A stretch of DNA of 53,644 nt, taken from assembly GCA_003160215.1 (NCBI GenBank), contig PLQW01000191.1, forward strand, positions 49,009 to 102,652. The letters are read 5' to 3'. This document shows, piece by piece, positions 7,681 through 49,009 of this stretch (within the stretch, counting starts at the first letter, position 1; each line of letters opens with the position of its first letter). The stretch is from Acidobacteriaceae bacterium. GTDB lineage: Bacteria > Acidobacteriota > Terriglobia > Terriglobales > Acidobacteriaceae. Position numbers and translations under genes: made by a program. Under the pieces are notes generated by a model that searched no databases, was not told where the DNA came from, and saw only the letters and a list, made by a program, of their open reading frames with translations.

Positions 7681-9198
7681 ATGCGTTTGCGATTTCGCTC
7701 GCTGCAGTTCCTGGTTGTTTTGGCGCTTTTCTCGCTGCCACTGCTGGCCCAGGCGCCGGCGGAAACAATTACGATTGATGCCGACGCGCCCACCCATCCG
7801 TTTCCCCATTTCTGGGAGCAGATGTTCGGTTCGGGCCGGGCCATCCTCAGCTTGCGCGACTCCTATCGCCGCGATTTGCGCTGGGTCTACCAAATCACCG
7901 GATTTCATTACGTGCGTTTTCACGCCATTCTCGACGATGACGTGGGGATTTATAGCGAAAACAAGCAAGGCCATCCAATTTACAACTTCTCATACGTTGA
8001 CCAGATCTACGACAATCTGCTGGCCAACGACGTGAAGCCGTTCGTCGAGTTTAGCTTCATGCCTTACCAGCTGGCTGCGCGACAGGATTTGCAATCGTTC
8101 TGGTATCGTCCCAACGTCTCACCCCCGAAGGACTACGCCAAGTGGGACGACATGATTACTCAATTCGTGAAGCACCTGGTCGATCGATACGGCATGGAAG
8201 AGGTCGCGAGCTGGTACTTCGAGGTGTGGAACGAGCCCAACCTCGACTTCTGGACGGGAACTCCCAAGCAGGAATCGTACTTCGAGCTGTACGACCACAC
8301 GGCCCGGGACATCAAGGCGGTGGGCCCGCAATTGCGAGTCGGCGGTCCGGCGACCGCTCAAGCCGCTTGGGTCGATGCCATGATCAAGCACGCGACGCAG
8401 ACGCATGTTCCCCTGGATTTTGTCTCCAGCCACGTGTACGGCAACGACAAGGCCGCCGATGTTTTCCACACCAGCGAGAACATTCCACGCGACCAAATGG
8501 TGTGTCGCGCAGTTAAGAAAGTGCATGACGAGATCAAGGCCTCGGCACTTCCCGATCTACCCCTGATCTGGAGCGAGTTTAATGCCGCTTACGACAACCA
8601 CGTCGAGGTGACCGATTCCATCTACATGGGTCCATGGCTGGCGGCGACCATCAGCCAGTGCGACGGCTTGACGCAAATGATGTCCTATTGGACCTTCTCG
8701 GACGTATTTGAAGAGCAGGGCGTAGTGAAGGAGCCGTTTTACGGCGGCTTTGGAGTAATTGCCGCGGGCGGCATTCCCAAGCCTTCGTTTTATGCCTTGC
8801 AAGTACTCCACCGCCTTGGCGATCAACGCATCGAAAACAACAGCCAGAGTGTGCTGGTCACAAAGACGAGCGCAGGAGCGCTGGTTATCGCGCTGTGGAA
8901 CATCGCGAATCCCGGTTCGACCGGCGCGCCGCGGACGGTAAAACTCGGCATCAAGGGAGTCGAGCCTGATTCTGGTGTTCGCGTCAGCCGCGTGGATGCG
9001 GAGCATGGCAATACCCTGGCGCTGTACGAGAAGATGGGCAAACCGCGTTACCCCACGCAAAATCAGATTCGGGAGCTGCGGGAGCAGTCCCAATTGCCCG
9101 ATCCCGAATACCGCGAGCTGAGCGATGGAAGCCTGACCCTGCAGTTGCCGGTCAATGGCCTGGCCGTCCTGCAGGTGATCAAGACAGGGGGCCACTGA
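7681..9198 (+). CDS. Exported GH39-family glycoside hydrolase (beta-xylosidase-like)
   Basis: Secreted glycosidase, probably releasing xylose or a related sugar from plant or microbial glycans. A signal peptide covers residues 1-25. The catalytic barrel follows, with acid/base Glu185 in FEVWNEPNLDFW and nucleophile Glu299 in IWSEFNAAYDNH, the GH39 arrangement. A C-terminal beta domain ends the protein (505 aa). ATG at 7681 is chosen because GGAG lies just before it and the signal peptide then starts cleanly; an in-frame ATG at 7636 would add 15 unlikely residues. No other carbohydrate genes are adjacent. Confidence 0.9.
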   Translation: MRLRFRSLQFLVVLALFSLPLLAQAPAETITIDADAPTHPFPHFWEQMFGSGRAILSLRDSYRRDLRWVYQITGFHYVRFHAILDDDVGIYSENKQGHPIYNFSYVDQIYDNLLANDVKPFVEFSFMPYQLAARQDLQSFWYRPNVSPPKDYAKWDDMITQFVKHLVDRYGMEEVASWYFEVWNEPNLDFWTGTPKQESYFELYDHTARDIKAVGPQLRVGGPATAQAAWVDAMIKHATQTHVPLDFVSSHVYGNDKAADVFHTSENIPRDQMVCRAVKKVHDEIKASALPDLPLIWSEFNAAYDNHVEVTDSIYMGPWLAATISQCDGLTQMMSYWTFSDVFEEQGVVKEPFYGGFGVIAAGGIPKPSFYALQVLHRLGDQRIENNSQSVLVTKTSAGALVIALWNIANPGSTGAPRTVKLGIKGVEPDSGVRVSRVDAEHGNTLALYEKMGKPRYPTQNQIRELREQSQLPDPEYRELSDGSLTLQLPVNGLAVLQVIKTGGH

Positions 9199-14495: not shown

Positions 14496-14507
14496 CATCC
14501 TGCTATG
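14496..14507. repeat. Left target-site duplication of the 5.4-kb element
   Basis: CATCCTGCTATG, identical to 19878-19889. The ATG at its end corresponds to the start codon of the DUF3307 gene. Joining sequence left of here to sequence right of 19889 gives TTTTGCAT-CCTGCT-ATGCAAAA, a perfect palindrome centred on the duplicated bases. Confidence 0.8.
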
Positions 14508-14600
14508 GCTTTGCACAAAATCGCCCGAAAGTGTTACACGAAAGTGTGCCTTGCGGCGAGTATTTGTGCAGCCCGCCGAATTCTCCCGACTTATTGTGCA
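14508..14600 (+). repeat. Left end of element with subterminal repeats
   Basis: Terminal GCTTTGCACA (14508-14517), then TTTGTGCA (14563-14570) and ATTGTGCA (14593-14600) in the opposite orientation. Both internal copies are followed by G, as in the other ends (TTTGTGCAG, ATTGTGCAG). Multiple end motifs of this sort are usual transposase-binding sites. The intervening bases contain no gene. Confidence 0.65.
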
Positions 14601-14645
14601 GGAATCGGAGGGGGCTATGATGTGCGAGAGGGAGGACTCCGGGCG

Positions 14646-14963
14646 ATGCGCATTCTTAGGGTCATCGGCGCAGTGCTGGTCGCGGTGGCCACGGTGGTGG
14701 GCGGTGTTGTGGCGTTCCTCACGTGGCGGGGCGTCAAGCCGAAGGACTTGCGCATGACCTGGCATTGGTTGTGGCTGGCGCTCGCTCTCGCGTTGCTTAC
14801 CTGTGGCGCAGGCTCGTTCCGCTTGCTGGTGAAGTACGTCAGGGAGGACATAGTGGTCGCTCGGCAAAGGAAAGCGGAACGGATTGCCGCCGCCCGCGCC
14901 GTGCGTACCGAGATGGAGCGGAGATACTTCGGTCTGCTGGAGCGTATGTTCAAGCGGCGCTAG
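14646..14963 (+). CDS. Small two-helix membrane protein
   Basis: 105-aa protein with two hydrophobic segments, about residues 5-25 (VIGAVLVAVATVVGGVVAF) and 40-62, followed by a very basic, Arg-rich C-terminal tail (RQRKAERIAAARAVRTEMER). GGGAGGA lies about nine bases before the ATG. The stop overlaps by three bases the converging transposase gene. I do not recognise the family. As the first cargo gene after the left end of unit 1 it occupies the position held by the Ntn hydrolase in unit 2. An in-frame extension upstream runs into the element end and is unlikely to be translated. Confidence 0.5.
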   Translation: MRILRVIGAVLVAVATVVGGVVAFLTWRGVKPKDLRMTWHWLWLALALALLTCGAGSFRLLVKYVREDIVVARQRKAERIAAARAVRTEMERRYFGLLERMFKRR

Positions 14964-16183
14964 GCCACGCAGTTCCAGAAAACGGGGTCGATGCCGAGTT
15001 CGTACATTTCGTGGATGAGCACTACCAGATTATGACAGAGCACCTTACAAAGCGTCTCGTTGACCATCGCCACATCGCTCTTGCTGCGCAGCGAGTCGCC
15101 GAACTTGCGCTTCATCATGCTGAAGGTGGACTCCACGTTCGACCGCTTGTGGTAGTGCGCGAGGTATTCGTCCCGCTTGAACATGAAGTAATGGTACATC
15201 TGCTCGAACGTCCCGCCCGCCTTGCCGGTCGCCGAGCCCTTGAACGCAATGAACGGGGTGCCTCCGGCTTTGGTAACAGCGTCCGTGTTGGAGAGGCTGC
15301 CGTAAGCCTTGTCCGCCGAAACCTCCGCGATGGAGAAATTCTCGGCGGTCGTCTTGACCATCGGCGCGAGCATCAGCGTGTCGTTCGTGTACATCCCTTC
15401 GATTTCCACGGCGGTCACGATGTTCGTTTTGACTCCGCACATGAGATGGCACTTGACCCAATCCTGCTTGACGTGCTTTTCGCCGTACTTCACGTCATAC
15501 CAGCGGGTGAAGCGGGATGCTGCGAAACCGGAGGAATCGACCGCGAAGCTGGTTTCAACGCTCTGGAGCGGGCGGCTGCTCTGCACGATGAGGCCGCGCA
15601 GGACGGGCGTCATGTTGGCGTTGTCGAGGTAGTTCAAAATCGAGTTGAAGTGGGGCAGCTTGGAGACGTAGCCGCGTGCTTGCGCCTCGCGCAGGTCGGA
15701 TATGAATCGCCTTGCGCTGAACGTCGAGTACACCTTGAACGCCGCGCTGAAGATGGCGTCGGAAATGGGCAGGGGCGGACGGCCAAGTCTCCGCACCCGC
15801 GGCTCGGCAACGCCACGGCACAGGTCGAACAGCAGGGCTTGGAACTTGTCCTTCTCGTTGGTCTGTGCGGCGTTGTAGGCAGACCATACTTGGGGATACG
15901 TGACCCGCTTTGTGGCCGTAAATGTGGCGGTCTCCGTTACTGTGGTGCTGCCGTCGGCATTTTGTTCACGTCGCATAACGTAGATGGCCGCGTAGATGTG
16001 CTTGCAGTTCCGGTGGCGCGCCTCGTAGTCGGGGCAGGAGCACTCGGGGTTTGTCTCGGCCAGATGCCTGACCGCATAGACGCCCTTGCCGCTCTGCGAC
16101 GGCACAAGCCAGCAATCGCCGTGCCGCTGAATCCTCTTTGTGGCCGCCAGTACGATTCCGCGCTGCTCTCTCAGGTCTTCCAT
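14960..16183 (-). CDS. SWIM zinc-finger DDE transposase
   Basis: 407-aa transposase. A SWIM-type zinc motif lies near the N-terminus (CSCPDYEARHRNCKH, about 49-63). It precedes an RNase-H-like DDE domain with FAVDSSGF (first Asp), SADKAYGS (second Asp) and SNVESTFSMMKRKFG (Glu), an IS4/IS5-type arrangement. It looks intact: no frameshift, full catalytic set, AGAGAGG five bases before the ATG and a near-consensus promoter. It is the only recombinase in the element and probably acts on the GCTTTGCACA ends, although this is not proven. The long ORF on the opposite strand is a shadow. Confidence 0.88.
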   Translation of the reverse strand: MEDLREQRGIVLAATKRIQRHGDCWLVPSQSGKGVYAVRHLAETNPECSCPDYEARHRNCKHIYAAIYVMRREQNADGSTTVTETATFTATKRVTYPQVWSAYNAAQTNEKDKFQALLFDLCRGVAEPRVRRLGRPPLPISDAIFSAAFKVYSTFSARRFISDLREAQARGYVSKLPHFNSILNYLDNANMTPVLRGLIVQSSRPLQSVETSFAVDSSGFAASRFTRWYDVKYGEKHVKQDWVKCHLMCGVKTNIVTAVEIEGMYTNDTLMLAPMVKTTAENFSIAEVSADKAYGSLSNTDAVTKAGGTPFIAFKGSATGKAGGTFEQMYHYFMFKRDEYLAHYHKRSNVESTFSMMKRKFGDSLRSKSDVAMVNETLCKVLCHNLVVLIHEMYELGIDPVFWNCVA

Positions 16184-16207
16184 AAGTGCCTCTCTTACCT
16201 GAGAACT

Positions 16208-16296
16208 ATATTACTAATTAGGTATATACTTGTCAAGGAAATAAGGAGAGAAGCCGAAGATTATTCCCTTGACAGTAATACCCTACTTGGTATATA
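16208..16296. promoter_or_regulatory. Divergent near-consensus sigma-70 promoters
   Basis: Minus strand: TTGACA (complement of 16231-16236), 17-base spacer, TAATAT (complement of 16208-16213), serving the transposase. Plus strand: TTGACA (16269-16274), 16-base spacer, TATATA (16291-16296), serving the zinc-ribbon gene. The two -35 boxes lie within a 14-bp inverted repeat with one mismatch (16231-16244, 16261-16274). The palindrome GTATATAC occurs twice (16222-16229, 16290-16297), overlapping the spacer of one promoter and the -10 of the other, and looks like an operator. Confidence 0.75.
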
Positions 16297-16307
16297 CGTA
16301 GTTACGT

Positions 16308-16469
16308 ATGGTACTAACGACACTAAAACTCAAGGGCTACCGCTGCACGCGCTGCGGGCACGAGTGGGTGCCACGCAAGAATCGCGCGACCGAACCGCGC
16401 GTTTGTCCGAGGTGCAAGTCGCCCTATTGGAATCGCCCCCGCAAACTGAAGAAGTCCAAGAACGCATGA
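16308..16469 (+). CDS. Small zinc-ribbon protein
   Basis: 53-aa protein with two CxxC pairs (CTRCGHEW at 13-20 and CPRCKSPYW at 33-41), a compact zinc ribbon of a widespread type, and a Lys-rich tail (RPRKLKKSKNA). It may bind nucleic acid or regulate the transposase; no function is established. The ATG begins only about 12 bases after the -10 box, so its mRNA would be leaderless or nearly so, and no Shine-Dalgarno sequence is present. A second copy of just its C-terminal tail sits at 18383-18421 in unit 2. Confidence 0.75.
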   Translation: MVLTTLKLKGYRCTRCGHEWVPRKNRATEPRVCPRCKSPYWNRPRKLKKSKNA

Positions 16470-16510
16470 CCGGACTTCGCAACTTTGCTCGGGCACGTTT
16501 CGATGCAATG

Positions 16511-16586
16511 TGGTGGAGGCGACCCGACTCGAACGGGCATCCCGCGATATCTCAGACCGCTGCTCTACCAGTTGAGCTACGCCCCC
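16511..16586 (-). tRNA. tRNA with GAG anticodon, class I fold, encoded CCA
   Basis: A canonical 76-nt cloverleaf reads on the minus strand: acceptor GGGGGCG/CGCCTCC (one G-U), D arm GCTC/GAGC with GG at 18-19, anticodon stem GCGGT/ATCGC, loop CTGAGAT (anticodon GAG), five-base variable loop, T arm GCCCG-TTCGAGT-CGGGT, discriminator A and genomic CCA. GAG decodes the Leu codon CTC. Bacterial leucine tRNAs have a long variable arm, which is absent, so charging identity is doubtful. It lies within the mobile element beside a conserved structured RNA. Confidence 0.8.
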
Positions 16587-16639
16587 ATCGCTGCCGCATC
16601 GGAAATGGCGGAGGCACCACCTCCGCCAGCGACAAGAGA

Positions 16640-16721
16640 GGCCAGACGTTTTGCGCTTGCCTGTCACAGCAAGAGCGCAGGACTCTGGCCCCTCTACTAC
16701 ATGATAGGAATTTGCGTGGAG
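16640..16721. ncRNA. Conserved 82-nt structured RNA element, copy 1
   Basis: Predicted folds: outer stem GGCCAGA (16640-16646) with TCTGGCC (16684-16690); inner stem TGCGCTTGC (16652-16660) with GCAAGAGCGCA (16669-16679, GA bulge); second hairpin CTCTAC (16692-16697) with GTGGAG (16716-16721). Copy 2 at 18560-18641 has the same length with 75 of 82 bases identical. All changes are in loops or swap A-U for G-U in the last stem. It lies about 135 bases ahead of an exported-protein gene and could be its leader; the active strand is not certain. Confidence 0.55.
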
Positions 16722-16855
16722 CTTATTTCTGAGGCGTGCTTAACGAGAATACGGATTCTAAGCAATGTGCGCTGGAAGGCCCGTAAATAGAGGGCTTCAG
16801 AGCACGAAGAAAATGAAACGGTGGGTGCGGAATTAGCGCGAGCGGAGAATTTTCT

Positions 16856-17275
16856 ATGAAACGCAAGACTGCTGTGCAAGCCGGATTGCTGTTTGTCATT
16901 TGCGCTGTGATGTGCAGTGTGATGCTGAATGCGAGCAATATCAGCAAGACGGCGACATTCAAGGGTACTTCCGATCAGGTGTTCAACGCCGCTGTCAAGG
17001 TCGCGCAGCTAAAATGGCACGTGACGTTCCTTGACCGCGAAACGAAAACGCTGAGCTTTCACGACTTTCCGACGATAGGGGATGTCGCGTGCAGCGTCGT
17101 GGTTGATGACTCGTATGGCGATTTAGTTCTTGTGACGCTGGGGATGCAGGCACGAAGTTCGGATGGGCGGGGCGTGATGGCGCTGGAAGTGGGGGAGGAA
17201 ATCGCTTCCCAATTCTTTAAGGGGATAGAAGCTGAACTTTCAAGGCAGGCGAAGTTGGCGAAGCAGCCGCACTAG
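16856..17275 (+). CDS. Exported protein of unknown function, unit 1
   Basis: 139-aa protein with a signal peptide (LLFVICAVMCSVMLNA, about residues 11-26) and a mature domain of about 110 residues with alternating beta strands (TATFKGTSDQVFNAAVKVAQ, LVLVTLGMQ). It has the look of a small periplasmic domain. GGAGA sits seven bases before the ATG. The gene lies downstream of the structured RNA and ends before a strong terminator. I cannot assign a family. Its counterpart in unit 2 (18757-19398) occupies the same slot but is not similar in its mature part. Confidence 0.7.
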   Translation: MKRKTAVQAGLLFVICAVMCSVMLNASNISKTATFKGTSDQVFNAAVKVAQLKWHVTFLDRETKTLSFHDFPTIGDVACSVVVDDSYGDLVLVTLGMQARSSDGRGVMALEVGEEIASQFFKGIEAELSRQAKLAKQPH

Positions 17276-17299
17276 GTCACTTTTTGACACGTAGGAACA

Positions 17300-17324
17300 G
17301 CCCGCCACATGGCGGGCCTTTTTC
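17300..17324 (+). terminator. Rho-independent terminator, unit 1
   Basis: GCCCGCC (17300-17306), loop ACAT, GGCGGGC (17311-17317), then CTTTTTC. Flanking bases match the unit 2 terminator at 19419 (AGAACAG or GGAACAG before, TTTTTCATTTTGCGA after), so the whole module was copied. Confidence 0.9.
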
Positions 17325-17340
17325 ATTTTGCGAGGGAACT

Positions 17341-17372
17341 ATGGCTAAGGCAGTAAAGGGCGACAGTCAAGG
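17341..17372 (+). pseudogene. Possible gene start cut off by the internal left end
   Basis: ATGGCTAAGGCAGTAAAGGG opens MAKAVKGDSQG after GAGGGA, and the frame then runs into the GCTTTGCACA end at 17373. If real, it is the first 10-11 codons of a unit 1 gene truncated when unit 2 joined. No continuation was found on the far side. Weak evidence. Confidence 0.25.
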
Positions 17373-17444
17373 GCTTTGCACAAGAAGGCCCGGAAAGGGC
17401 CGGTGTGCTGTGACTTTTTGTGCAGCCTCTGGACTTCTTGTGCA
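17373..17444 (+). repeat. Internal left end (start of unit 2)
   Basis: GCTTTGCACA (17373-17382) is identical to the terminal repeat at 14508. It is followed by TTTTTGTGCAG (17415-17425) and TTCTTGTGCAG (17435-17445), 20 bases apart, the same order and orientation as the outer left end. The matching right end would be the one at 19868. Confidence 0.65.
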
Positions 17445-17481
17445 GGCACGGCTCGGGCAGGGTTGGCGGAGGGGGTGTTAA

Positions 17482-18381
17482 ATGGTACGGACACTTCCGA
17501 AGCCGCACCCAAAGTTGGAGCGGCCAAAGGCGAAAAACATGACCTTGGTTGCGGGATTCAAATGTAGAGATGGCTTCGTCGTTGCCGCCGACACGGAGAT
17601 CACTTACGGAGCGGTGCGGTTTCAGGGGCACAAGCTTGCCAAGTACTACGGTCAAAGCAAGTCGTACGACATCATTATTGGAGGGGCGGGCGATGGAGTC
17701 TACATTGACGCGGTGTGCCAAAAGATTAGGGATGCTGTTTCCGCACTTTCCCAGCCGACGCTCGCGAATATCAAAGATGCGGTGGAGAAAGTAATCGCCG
17801 CCGTACACAGCGACTCAATTTTCAAGTACTGGAAACCGGATGACCCTGACCGTCCCTTTGTGCAACTCGTTTGCGGTATCCAAGACGGACAAAAGGATTG
17901 GGGTCTGCTGCAAACGGATAGAGATGCCTTGGCAGAGGCAGACGACCATGCTGTGGCCGGAAGCGGCTCTATATTGGCCGAGTACTTGATTGAGAAGATG
18001 TGGATTCCCGGACTCTCGACAGCGGTTACAGTCCATTTAGCTCGTCAGTTGTTTCGGGAGGTCAAGACTAAGGGGTCATACGTTGGGGGGAATACAGAAA
18101 TAATAGGGCGGCGCGTGACTAAAGACGCGGAGCAGTTCTTCGATGTTGCGGAGGAAGACTACAGGTTCTTGTGGGGCATCGACGAACTTATGCTTAGTGG
18201 CGTCAGAGTTGCTTTGGACTACACCAAATCGCCGCAATTGGTGCTCAACAGAATTGAGGAGATCACTGCAAGGCTGAAGAAAATACGGGAGAGCAGTGAG
18301 AAGCCACGTCCTCCCAAGGGCGATACATTAAGGCTCACCGAATTCGGAAGCGAGTACGGTGACTGGTTCAAGGATTACTAG
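17482..18381 (+). CDS. Orphan proteasome-like Ntn hydrolase
   Basis: 299-aa protein of the proteasome-beta/HslV superfamily. After residue 20 (Met) the sequence reads TLVAGFKCRDGFVVAADTE. Numbering from that Thr gives Thr1 and Asp17, the conserved proteasome positions, with Lys31 or Lys34 near the usual Lys33. GGAGGGGG precedes the ATG at 17482, so residues 1-20 could be a propeptide; an internal ATG at 17539 would expose Thr directly after Met removal. The C-terminal 80 residues are mostly helical. No ATPase or alpha subunit is nearby. Its location as cargo in a mobile element suggests a self-contained protease with an unknown target. Confidence 0.75.
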   Translation: MVRTLPKPHPKLERPKAKNMTLVAGFKCRDGFVVAADTEITYGAVRFQGHKLAKYYGQSKSYDIIIGGAGDGVYIDAVCQKIRDAVSALSQPTLANIKDAVEKVIAAVHSDSIFKYWKPDDPDRPFVQLVCGIQDGQKDWGLLQTDRDALAEADDHAVAGSGSILAEYLIEKMWIPGLSTAVTVHLARQLFREVKTKGSYVGGNTEIIGRRVTKDAEQFFDVAEEDYRFLWGIDELMLSGVRVALDYTKSPQLVLNRIEEITARLKKIRESSEKPRPPKGDTLRLTEFGSEYGDWFKDY

Positions 18382-18382
18382 G

Positions 18383-18421
18383 CCAAAGCCTCGCAAGTTG
18401 AAGAAGGCGAAGAAGGCATGA
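18383..18421 (+). pseudogene. Zinc-ribbon gene remnant (C-terminal tail only)
   Basis: Directly after the Ntn hydrolase stop, codons for KPRKLKKAKKA and a stop match the tail RPRKLKKSKNA of the zinc-ribbon gene at 16308-16469. The zinc ribbon itself is missing. This shows that unit 2 lost the transposase and most of the zinc-ribbon gene, replaced by the hydrolase gene. Confidence 0.65.
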
Positions 18422-18462
18422 TTCACCTCGGTGAACTAGCGCGAGCAGGTTGCGATACGGTG

Positions 18463-18543
18463 TTGTGGAGACCGGAGCCGGAGTCGAACCGGATGGACAG
18501 CCGTTGCAAAGGGTGCTCCGTTCCGCACGGAACTCCGGTCTCC
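18463..18543 (-). other. tRNA-like sequence, unit 2
   Basis: At the position of the unit 1 tRNA, the minus strand has a good T-arm (CCGG-TTCGACT-CCGG) but an 11-bp acceptor-like stem, GGAGACCGGAG with CTCCGGTCTCC (ends 18467 and 18543), and no convincing D or anticodon stem (TTTGCAA loop unpaired). No CCA follows. It is a decayed or non-standard tRNA, or a tRNA mimic. The rest of 18382-18756 holds only the tail remnant and RNA copy 2. Confidence 0.35.
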
Positions 18544-18559
18544 GTCAGCAATACGAAGA

Positions 18560-18641
18560 GGCCAGACGTTTTGCGCTTGCCCATCACAGCAAGAGCGCAC
18601 ACTTCTGGCCCCTCTACTACATGATAGGAATTTGCGTAGAG
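18560..18641. ncRNA. Conserved 82-nt structured RNA element, copy 2
   Basis: Same fold as 16640-16721: GGCCAGA (18560-18566) with TCTGGCC (18604-18610), the inner TGCGCTTGC with GCAAGAGCGCA stem, and CTCTAC (18612-18617) with GTAGAG (18636-18641). Similarity continues more weakly to about 18700. It precedes the exported-protein gene by about 115 bases. Confidence 0.55.
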
Positions 18642-18756
18642 CATTTTCTGAGGTGTGCTTAACGAGAAATGCGGATTCTAAGCAGATGTGCCGAGAACCC
18701 TTATCAGGAGCGGGCTTTTCGAGCGCAGAGAAAATGAAAGGCTGGGTGCGTAATTG

Positions 18757-19398
18757 ATGCAGGCTGAGAATTTTCTTGTTGCGGAGCAACTTCAATGGCG
18801 GAAGGTGTTTGGATTGCTGGCCCTGTTGGTGCTTGCGACGATTGTGGGCGCGCAGCAGCAGAAGTCGCCGTCCGTTAAGGCTGGAGTCGTGTCTGGCTCT
18901 GTGTTTCTCATCACGAAAAGTGGCGACCTGAAACCAGCGAGGATGGCGGATGTCTATTTGCTCTACCTATACCGCAGCGTGAAAGTGGCGAACGCAAATC
19001 CGGAAGATGCGGATTCCGCCGGTCATGCTTGGATGGATAACTACAACAAGGTTATGGAAGAGTTCCTGAAGGTGTTTGCATCACCGGAGGGAATGGCTTG
19101 GAGCGACAAGCTGGCGTGCCTTAAGCACTTGCAGAATTACCAAGATGCCTTGTCTCAAACACGGGATTGGGCGTCGGCAAAACATAAGGGTTGGCAGATA
19201 CTCATAACCGAGACTGATGAAAACGGGGTGTTCAGGATCGCCGTCCCCCATCCGGGGGAATACAGCATACTCGCAAGCGGGCGCGCAGGATTTAATGATG
19301 CTTTTTGGGTAGTCGATGCTCCCGGCATCATTGTCAATCCGGGGGCGACTACGACTGTGAAGTTGTCATCACCCGCAAAATCCTGCTTGGCAGACTGA
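18757..19398 (+). CDS. Exported protein with carboxypeptidase-regulatory-like fold, unit 2
   Basis: 213-aa protein. A hydrophobic stretch at about 17-32 (VFGLLALLVLATIVGAQ) is a signal peptide. The mature part begins GSVFLITKSGDLKPARMADV and ends with TETDENGVFRIAVPHPGEY, a pattern typical of carboxypeptidase-regulatory (prealbumin-like) domains that bind or coat surfaces. A helical insert lies between. ATG at 18757 has only a distant GAAAGG, so the start is uncertain. It lies between structured RNA copy 2 and a terminator identical in type to that of unit 1. Confidence 0.65.
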   Translation: MQAENFLVAEQLQWRKVFGLLALLVLATIVGAQQQKSPSVKAGVVSGSVFLITKSGDLKPARMADVYLLYLYRSVKVANANPEDADSAGHAWMDNYNKVMEEFLKVFASPEGMAWSDKLACLKHLQNYQDALSQTRDWASAKHKGWQILITETDENGVFRIAVPHPGEYSILASGRAGFNDAFWVVDAPGIIVNPGATTTVKLSSPAKSCLAD

Positions 19399-19418
19399 GG
19401 TTTTGACGTATAAGAACA

Positions 19419-19443
19419 GCCCGCCGTGCAGCGGGCCTTTTTC
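19419..19443 (+). terminator. Rho-independent terminator, unit 2
   Basis: GCCCGC (19419-19424), a six-base loop, GCGGGC (19431-19436), then CTTTTTC. The stem and flanks are a diverged copy of the unit 1 terminator. Confidence 0.88.
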
Positions 19444-19524
19444 ATTTTGCGAAAAGGTGTGAAATGCCCGAATCAAATTCAAAACAGCGGGGGTGGGGCC
19501 ACATGACTCCCGAGCAAGTTGAAT

Positions 19525-19803
19525 TCATAAACCGAACGCCTTTTCCGAAAGGGCCGTTTGGTCTAGATGCTCGCTCCCGGCGACGAGTGCTTGGATTTGG
19601 GCAAAGGATAGAAATACTAGGAATGTTTTTGGAAACGCTGGGACGTTGCCTTGTGCGAGTAGCCAATCTGTGAAGTGCTGGCTTTCGACCCAGATGCCGC
19701 TGATTTCGACATCGTGGAGCGTGAACTGCTGCCACTCGTCGGGCTGGAGGAACGACACCTTTACAAGGACGGTCTTGCCGACCAGATGCTGAAGTCGAGG
19801 CAT
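19525..19803 (-). CDS. Hypothetical 92-aa protein next to right end
   Basis: Minus-strand ORF starting ATG at 19803 (TTG at 19809 also possible). The sequence has a natural composition with beta-strand character (GKTVLVKVSFLQPDEWQQF, HDVEISGIWVES) and a helical end. No family is recognised. Its 5' end is 13 bases from the first TTTTTGTGCA of the right end, so its promoter would overlap the transposase sites. A plus-strand ORF at 19464-19673 overlaps it and follows a weak ribosome site; I consider the minus ORF more protein-like. Confidence 0.5.
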   Translation of the reverse strand: MPRLQHLVGKTVLVKVSFLQPDEWQQFTLHDVEISGIWVESQHFTDWLLAQGNVPAFPKTFLVFLSFAQIQALVAGSEHLDQTALSEKAFGL

Positions 19804-19815
19804 GAGCAATTATAC

Positions 19816-19877
19816 TTTTTGTGCAGGACAGGGAGTTTTTGTGCAATGGAGGGGAACTTGAACTTAATGTGCAAAGC
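19816..19877 (-). repeat. Right end of element with subterminal repeats
   Basis: TTTTTGTGCA at 19816-19825 and 19836-19845 (20 bases apart) and terminal TGTGCAAAGC (19868-19877), the exact complement of the left terminal repeat. Confidence 0.65.
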
Positions 19878-19889
19878 CATCCTGCTATG
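19878..19889. repeat. Right target-site duplication
   Basis: CATCCTGCTATG, matching 14496-14507. Its last three bases are the start codon of the DUF3307 gene. Confidence 0.8.
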
Positions 19890-47596: not shown

Positions 47597-49009
47597 ATGC
47601 CACGGCACCTGAAATCCGCACTAGCACTGTTAACGGCGTTTATGCTGGCCGCAGCGGCTGGCGCATTCGCAGAGTCGCATGTCAGGATTGTCCGTCTCAG
47701 CTACCTTAATGGGCAGGTGCGGACAGATCGGACAACGGGACAAGGACTAGAGCGCGCCATCTTGAATACACCCATCGTGCAGGGAATGCGAGTTGAGACC
47801 GGGAATGACGGTTTGGCCGAAGTGGAATTCGAGAACGCAAGCACCCTGCGAATCGCGGAGAACTCAGAAATCGAGTTCCGCACGCTGTCCATGAACGACT
47901 CCGGCGCCAAGGTCAACGAGATCGAGGTGGTCAAAGGCGTCGTCTATCTCGACGCCCGCTCCAAGGGCGATGACATCTATCGCATCAAGAGTGGCGATTC
48001 GATCCTCCTGGTGCAGCGCGACACCCAACTCCGATTGAGCGTGACTCCTGAGCGGGCGCGGCTAGCCGTGTTCAAAGGCAACGTCCAACTCATGGACCAG
48101 CCACAGATGGTGAACGTTAAGCGGAAAGAAACTCTCACCGTCGACCCGACAGATCCGGCTGGGTACAAGGTTGCGGTTGGCACCGAACCGCTTCCGGCGG
48201 ATGGCTGGAACCGCGAACGGGAAGCTTACCAGCAGGCCTACGCAGACAACGCCGGCAACCCTGGTCCCAGGGTTGGGTATGGGCTGCAAGACCTCAACTA
48301 CTATGGAAGCTACTTCATGGCGCCCGGCTATGGATATGCCTGGCAGCCGTACGGCTTCGCCAATTCGATGATTGGATGGGATCCCTATTCTCTTGGCGCG
48401 TGGATCTTTTCTCCCGGCCTCGGGTACTCGTTCGCTTCGCAATATCCGTGGGGATGGCTGCCGTACCACTACGGCTCCTGGGCTTTCTTAGGCGGCGGTA
48501 TCGGATGGGCCTGGATTCCCGGCGGAAACTACGGTAGCGGCTGGTATAGCAGCCGGTTCCAGGCCACTCCAATTGTGGCGAAAGCACCTTCCGGCTGGAC
48601 AGCCGCTACTGCGCCGGCCGTGGCGGTGGGCCAATCTCCGAAGCCGACCGTGATGGTTGGAAGAGCTAATTCCGCAGCGTACATCCCCGGCGGACGCATA
48701 CCTCCTGCCTTTAGCAGCGTGATTCGCGGACACAGTGCCGGTGCAAGCGCGACCTTCAACAACGCCGGTGTTCGGAACCGAGCGATGAACGACAACGTGT
48801 TCGTGCCCCACTACAACGCCTTCGGGGCCGGGCCCAACTCACAGAGGGGACACGTATTTGCCGCACCGGTTGCCCCGGTTGCAGTGATGGGAAGTCCAAT
48901 GTCTGTCGGCCCGGGGTATGGTACGAGTGCAGGTCGAGGCGTTGCGGCGCCGCCGGCGTCGAGCGGCCACGCAAGCGCCAGCCATAGCTCGGGTCCCTCT
49001 CACAACTGA
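47597..49009 (+). CDS. Exported FecR-domain protein with Gly/aromatic-rich C-terminus
   Basis: 470-aa secreted protein. Signal peptide about 1-25, then a FecR-like beta domain (about 29-190: LSYLNGQVRTDRTTGQGLER, GLAEVEFENASTLRIAENSE, IKSGDSILLVQRDTQLRLS). The C-terminal 270 residues are rich in Gly, Tyr and Trp (WGWLPYHYGSWAFLGGGIGW, WAWIPGGNYGSGWYSSRF), seen in many acidobacterial surface proteins. AAGGAG precedes ATG by seven bases. It is unlikely to be a true iron-signalling FecR because no sigma factor is beside it. Confidence 0.85.
   Translation: MPRHLKSALALLTAFMLAAAAGAFAESHVRIVRLSYLNGQVRTDRTTGQGLERAILNTPIVQGMRVETGNDGLAEVEFENASTLRIAENSEIEFRTLSMNDSGAKVNEIEVVKGVVYLDARSKGDDIYRIKSGDSILLVQRDTQLRLSVTPERARLAVFKGNVQLMDQPQMVNVKRKETLTVDPTDPAGYKVAVGTEPLPADGWNREREAYQQAYADNAGNPGPRVGYGLQDLNYYGSYFMAPGYGYAWQPYGFANSMIGWDPYSLGAWIFSPGLGYSFASQYPWGWLPYHYGSWAFLGGGIGWAWIPGGNYGSGWYSSRFQATPIVAKAPSGWTAATAPAVAVGQSPKPTVMVGRANSAAYIPGGRIPPAFSSVIRGHSAGASATFNNAGVRNRAMNDNVFVPHYNAFGAGPNSQRGHVFAAPVAPVAVMGSPMSVGPGYGTSAGRGVAAPPASSGHASASHSSGPSHN

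Follow-up and report, generated by a model that had tools for sequence, protein, structure and literature searches.

A structure-prone repeat beside tRNA sequences and cargo genes in a composite transposon of an Acidobacteriaceae bacterium

What is the 82-nt sequence that stands twice in one contig of an Acidobacteriaceae bacterium, and why are its two copies so alike? The window, which is the whole stretch of 53,644 nt analysed here, is taken from contig PLQW01000191.1 of assembly GCA_003160215.1 (forward strand, positions 49,009 to 102,652). A first-pass annotation had described the repeat as a conserved structured RNA, possibly new, and its coordinates and counts are correct on recount. The copies at 16640–16721 and 18560–18641 are both 82 nt long with 75 of 82 bases identical, and the stems GGCCAGA/TCTGGCC and CTCTAC/GTGGAG or GTAGAG are found in both. 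Taken as 88 nt, each copy folds better than 200 of 200 shuffles on the plus strand (z −3.8 and −3.5). The 82 nt is the best-kept end of a plus-strand repeat of ~220 nt (16637–16855 and 18557–18776), which is 83% identical over 219 bases. The similarity runs from hairpin P1 (from 16637 and 18557) up to the start of the next ORF. In copy 1 the P1 hairpin (16640–16690) and the P2 hairpin (16692–16721) are followed by more hairpins up to the start of ORF1; in copy 2 P1 occupies 18560–18610 and P2 18612–18641. Downstream are cargo ORF1 (16856–17275, plus strand, 139 aa), which belongs to no family, and cargo ORF2 (18757–19398, plus strand, 213 aa from its ATG). Both have signal-peptide-like starts, as expected from the annotation's placing of the copies ahead of exported-protein genes. 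ORF2 has no similarity to ORF1, and a homology between the two was rejected, as no alignment was obtained. The repeat similarity returns 3′ of each ORF in a plus-strand stretch of 52 nt with an intrinsic terminator (17282–17333, terminator 17300–17317; 19401–19452, terminator 19419–19436). A possible short leader ORF (window 16700–16790 and 18620–18661) begins in the P2 loop with MIGICVE... and has ~29 codons in copy 1 and 13 in copy 2; the sole change in the shared start, GTG to GTA, is synonymous.

Both copies lie in a composite transposon of 5,370 bp (14508–19877), which ends in 10-bp inverted repeats and is flanked by a perfect target duplication of 12 bp. The left terminal inverted repeat GCTTTGCACA (14508–14517, plus strand) and the right one TGTGCAAAGC (19868–19877, plus strand), the latter preceded by two TTTTTGTGCA sites at 19816 and 19836, are bounded by identical copies of CATCCTGCTATG at 14496–14507 and 19878–19889. 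Ends of the form GCTTTGC[AC]CA recur in related elements. A genome of the same genus (G004) provides the empty site, in which the target is present once as CACTCCGCTATG. There the methionine synthase and SatD genes directly adjoin the DUF3307 gene, and the window has 5.4 kb extra at this point. An internal left-end-like sequence (17373–17445, plus strand) has the same sub-terminal sites as the first left end and marks the start of a second element, which indicates that the segment is a composite of two related elements. The insertion is supported by the target duplication and the empty site, and its make-up of two elements by the internal left end and the repeated flanks around unrelated ORFs. 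A tRNA or tRNA-like sequence, a leader, a cargo ORF and a terminator are present in both elements. In the second element, a proteasome-like (Ntn-hydrolase) cargo ORF of 299 aa (17482–18381, plus strand) is found in place of the transposase and most of the zinc-ribbon gene. Only a relic of the zinc-ribbon 3′ end is left (18389–18421, plus strand), so that this tail is also repeated on the other flank, with 27 of 33 bases shared with 16437–16469. The exchange of cargo between like flanks had raised the idea of integron-like cassettes, which was dropped, as the segment is marked as a transposon by its terminal repeats and target duplication. Two copies of the repeat are seen because two related elements are joined. 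Judged from the sequence, the copies are paralogues inside one mobile element, since they sit in its two halves. The term "conserved", in its evolutionary meaning, was thus not borne out: both copies belong to one genome and one transposon, and no convincing third copy is found.

The search for further copies bears on whether the repeat is a new structured RNA family that stands on its own and is conserved among bacteria. The repeat, taken at 82 to 220 nt, matches no Rfam family above the gathering threshold, which would agree with such a family. Further copies are not present in the own genome, and blastn in 150 relatives gave no third copy. No convincing third copy was found with covariance model R1 in samples of 399 genomes of the class and 245 of the family, in a 20-mer exact search of IMG/VR or in a 19-mer exact search of GTDB r220. 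The one 19-mer match, L033 in a Chloroflexi MAG, is a chance match with the flanking stems absent. The one weak candidate of the model search, L035 (25 bits, E 0.002), came from a single genome of the 399 and was rejected, with about one such match expected in 399. Because the genome samples overlap and the search tool filters more strictly on large sets, distant copies may be missed. The Rfam and covariance-model check that had been proposed thus gave no known family and also no homologues outside the transposon in which the stems could be tested. With no convincing copy outside the transposon in any search and the weak L035 match at about chance, a stand-alone conserved RNA family is largely refuted and very improbable. 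Of the wording "structured RNA, possibly new", the structure-prone nature and the absence from Rfam hold, but a new RNA family is not established, and any RNA function of the 82 nt is putative.

Are the stems kept beyond chance? It had been noted that the stems stay paired and that the changes lie in loops. The counts agree with this, as six of the seven changes between the 82-nt copies are outside the named stems and the seventh turns a U-G pair into U-A, but the retention is no better than chance. With the structure taken from one copy and scored in the other, random placement of the 8 changes in 88 columns keeps as many pairs in 26–62% of trials. Stem-keeping in P1–P2 carries little weight because of these few changes and this chance-level retention. 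Over the full leader, the number of surviving pairs exceeds that under random placement in 4 of 4 tests (P 0.007–0.09). P1–P2 is better kept than the remaining leader (8/88 vs 34/130 changes, P = 0.0016), but not significantly better than the zinc-ribbon tail plus terminator (P = 0.12). It could be argued that there is no RNA role at all: the similarity would be neutral, left by the joining of elements, and the hairpins would be DNA inverted repeats, possibly protein-binding or recombination sites. The last comparison, the chance-level stem-keeping and the presence of only two copies agree with this, whereas the uneven conservation along the leader, the folding of both copies well below shuffles and the pairs kept above expectation in the full leader speak against it. 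We consider this explanation rather unlikely. Two copies are too few to settle whether the stems are kept by selection.

The retained-pair test favours neither strand. Several helix changes give G-U on the plus strand and would give A-C on the minus strand, a mild hint that may point to the plus strand. No sigma-70-like promoter is found in the leader on either strand. These observations concern a further explanation, in which the repeat is only a plus-strand cis-regulatory leader. The ~220-nt RNA would act on the exported cargo genes by controlling their translation or early termination, and the tRNA would be incidental. The match is unbroken to the starts of the two ORFs, which are unrelated to one another and both followed by the same terminator, and together with the G-U changes this argues for a leader. 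Yet the strand test is indecisive, a promoter was not found, and the nearest relative of ORF1, in the same-genus genome G002, is without the repeat leader. A role as leader only therefore seems doubtful to us.

A tRNA on the opposite strand had been claimed beside the copies, and tRNA sequences are indeed found there on the minus strand. At 16511–16586 lies a type I tRNA with anticodon GAG (Leu codons CUC/CUU) and an encoded CCA; its part from 16514 to 16586 is the only sequence above the Rfam gathering score. It has an ordinary 7/5 type I body with A73, and its nearest match is elongator tRNA-Met (73%). The own genome also encodes an ordinary type II tRNA-Leu(GAG). The counterpart next to copy 2 is a decayed tRNA-like sequence (about 18466–18543) with GCA in the anticodon loop and the T-arm motif kept, which scores 24 bits as tRNA-Sec in Rfam (cut-off 47). 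A minus-strand mini-hairpin with CCA, GGCGGAG-GTGGTGC-CTCCGCC-A, is found at 16606–16627, and L087 has a similar remnant just 3′ of its tRNA. The mini-hairpin may be a collapsed, bare acceptor stem left by a second tRNA that lost its middle. Elsewhere in the own genome, L052 and L053 (contigs C2 and C82) are type II Ser-like tRNAs, which ARAGORN calls tRNA-Ile(GAT) and tRNA-Ile(TAT).

Transposase searches led to related elements in further genera and families of the same class, with transposases 52–71% identical to that of the window. The checked relatives have similar ends, and their flanking duplications match at 11 of 11 positions in L069, 10/11 in L070, 9/11 in L071 and 10/12 in L077. The gene order transposase, zinc ribbon, non-canonical tRNA(s) and hairpin is kept. 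Seven relatives (L069, L070, L071, L076, L085, L086 and L087) have one or two tRNAs directly behind the zinc-ribbon gene on the opposite strand. Ser-type bodies with a long variable arm and G73 carry the anticodon GCA (L069, L070, L085, L086), TAA (L076) or GTC (L071); where ARAGORN made no call, anticodons were taken by hand from 7-nt loops. Glu-like tRNAs, all on the minus strand, are found in L069 (8587–8663, a second tRNA with anticodon TTA, which would read the UAA stop), L085 (8206–8281, TGC) and L087 (about 1532–1607 of the flipped locus, TTT), each arranged in tandem with a tRNA of Ser type with anticodon GCA or with what remains of one. Across the family, the bodies are thus Ser-type or Glu-like and the anticodons those for Cys, Leu, Asp, Lys, Ala or stop. 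The acceptor stem is a contiguous 9 bp in L069, L076, L085 and L086 and of the 7/5 type in L070, L071, L087 and the window tRNA. Allo-tRNAs, in which the 12-bp acceptor branch is built as 8/4 or 9/3, have been described, in Acidobacteria among others (Mukai et al. 2017, reviewed in PMC7609411). By their sequence features, the Ser-type tRNAs of the relatives resemble these allo-tRNAs: the Ser-type body, long variable arm, G73, non-Ser anticodons and side-by-side irregular tRNAs are shared, and so is the contiguous 9-bp acceptor stem of the four elements named above. In contrast, the window tRNA (type I, A73, 7/5) is not an allo-tRNA, the Glu-like second tRNAs are without Ser-type features, and the fixed tRNA place in a defined transposon family with a shared 5′ hairpin is absent from the review (PMC7609411). 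Taken together, these transposon-borne tRNAs look able to misread the genetic code.

In four elements (L072, L077, L090 and L091) a tRNA is absent. The tRNA-bearing elements were considered as one clade, but on the tree their distribution takes three changes, which neither demonstrates nor rules against a single gain with losses. The smallest complete elements are L071 (2,328 bp), with transposase, zinc ribbon, tRNA and hairpin, and L069 (2,986 bp), to which one ORF and a second tRNA are added. As these elements hold little else, their tRNA is not there as chance cargo. In L090 (~7773–7845) and L091 (~1088–1200), with the transposase on the minus strand, the tRNA slot holds a small ORF with the shared start MSTM-VIESSE, which in L090 is followed by an exported-protein gene. 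The tRNA-less, distant L072 (8463–11097) has a large cargo gene, called by eye from its motifs as N6-DNA-methylase-like (restriction-type).

The relatives also offer a place for the repeat. In L069, L070, L071, L085, L086 and L087, the tRNA strand carries a hairpin 5′ of the tRNA(s), with a GC-rich outer stem of 9 bp and mostly with CAAACGTTTG inside. L076 has a different, unrelated-looking hairpin in the same slot, so that seven relatives in total have a hairpin directly 5′ of the tRNA(s). Model R2, built from the hairpin of the six, matches only five known elements in 250 family genomes. Both window copies occupy this slot, a short way 5′ of the tRNA or tRNA-like sequence when read in its direction. 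The end of P1 is ~10–14 nt from the mini-remnant (copy 1) or the tRNA-like sequence (copy 2) and ~50 nt from the copy 1 tRNA, and the gap in the relatives is ~7–40 nt. Homology of P1 to the relatives' hairpin was rejected, as R2 gives 6 bits at best with filters off, which is at chance level. Since R2 does not match the window hairpin, P1 is to be regarded as its positional counterpart and not as a detectable homologue.

Weighing these observations, the repeat is probably a structured non-coding module, present in each half of the composite between a minus-strand non-canonical tRNA and a plus-strand cargo gene. It is most likely a control stretch in which two roles, head of the tRNA transcript and leader of the cargo, would be combined. 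As minus-strand RNA, P1 would be the form that the hairpin at the start of the tRNA transcript takes in this element. As plus-strand RNA, the entire ~220 nt would form the 5′ untranslated leader of the cargo gene, in a transcript ending at the repeated terminator. The copies would be alike through the joining of two related elements and not through a wide spread of the RNA. For the non-canonical tRNAs of Acidobacteria, neither a place in the genome nor a role had been clear, apart from the guess that they accompany transposable elements. In at least eight elements of the present family, such a tRNA occupies a fixed slot of a transposon with defined ends, a target duplication and mostly a dedicated 5′ hairpin. 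The purpose of these tRNAs becomes testable on a small element of 2.3 kb (L071) or 3.0 kb (L069). The repeat alone is a local curiosity, and the transposon family with its regular, apparently mis-decoding tRNA is the finding worth following. A much more speculative and quite unlikely idea is that the family keeps, among its core genes, a tRNA which mis-decodes or reads stop codons. Acting through the structured leader and the hairpin-led tRNA transcript, this tRNA might adjust how the element's zinc-finger transposase, zinc ribbon or cargo is translated. If true, serine inserted at Cys codons would, for example, damage zinc ligands.

The transposase of the window (14960–16183, minus strand) has an N-terminal SWIM zinc finger and DDE_Tnp_1. 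Its best-scoring curated model is IS5_2 of the IS5-type insertion sequences (NCBIfam NF033579, transpos_IS5_2), but its 103 bits stay below the 140-bit cut-off of that model. The SWIM finger, the 11–12-bp target duplications and the cargo and tRNA genes further distinguish this transposon family from IS5-type insertion sequences. The transposase was not found in viral contigs, and the plasmid search gave only distant IS5-type matches, with ~24–30% identity among the matches listed. Defence-system cargo was considered and rejected, with no PADLOC match. The 53-aa zinc-ribbon ORF (16308–16469, plus strand) is divergent from the transposase gene and has the same position in related elements. The divergent promoter region of these two genes (16208–16310, and the same region in related elements) contains repeated TATATTACTA..TAGGTATATA-like palindromes, which are possible operators for self-regulation.
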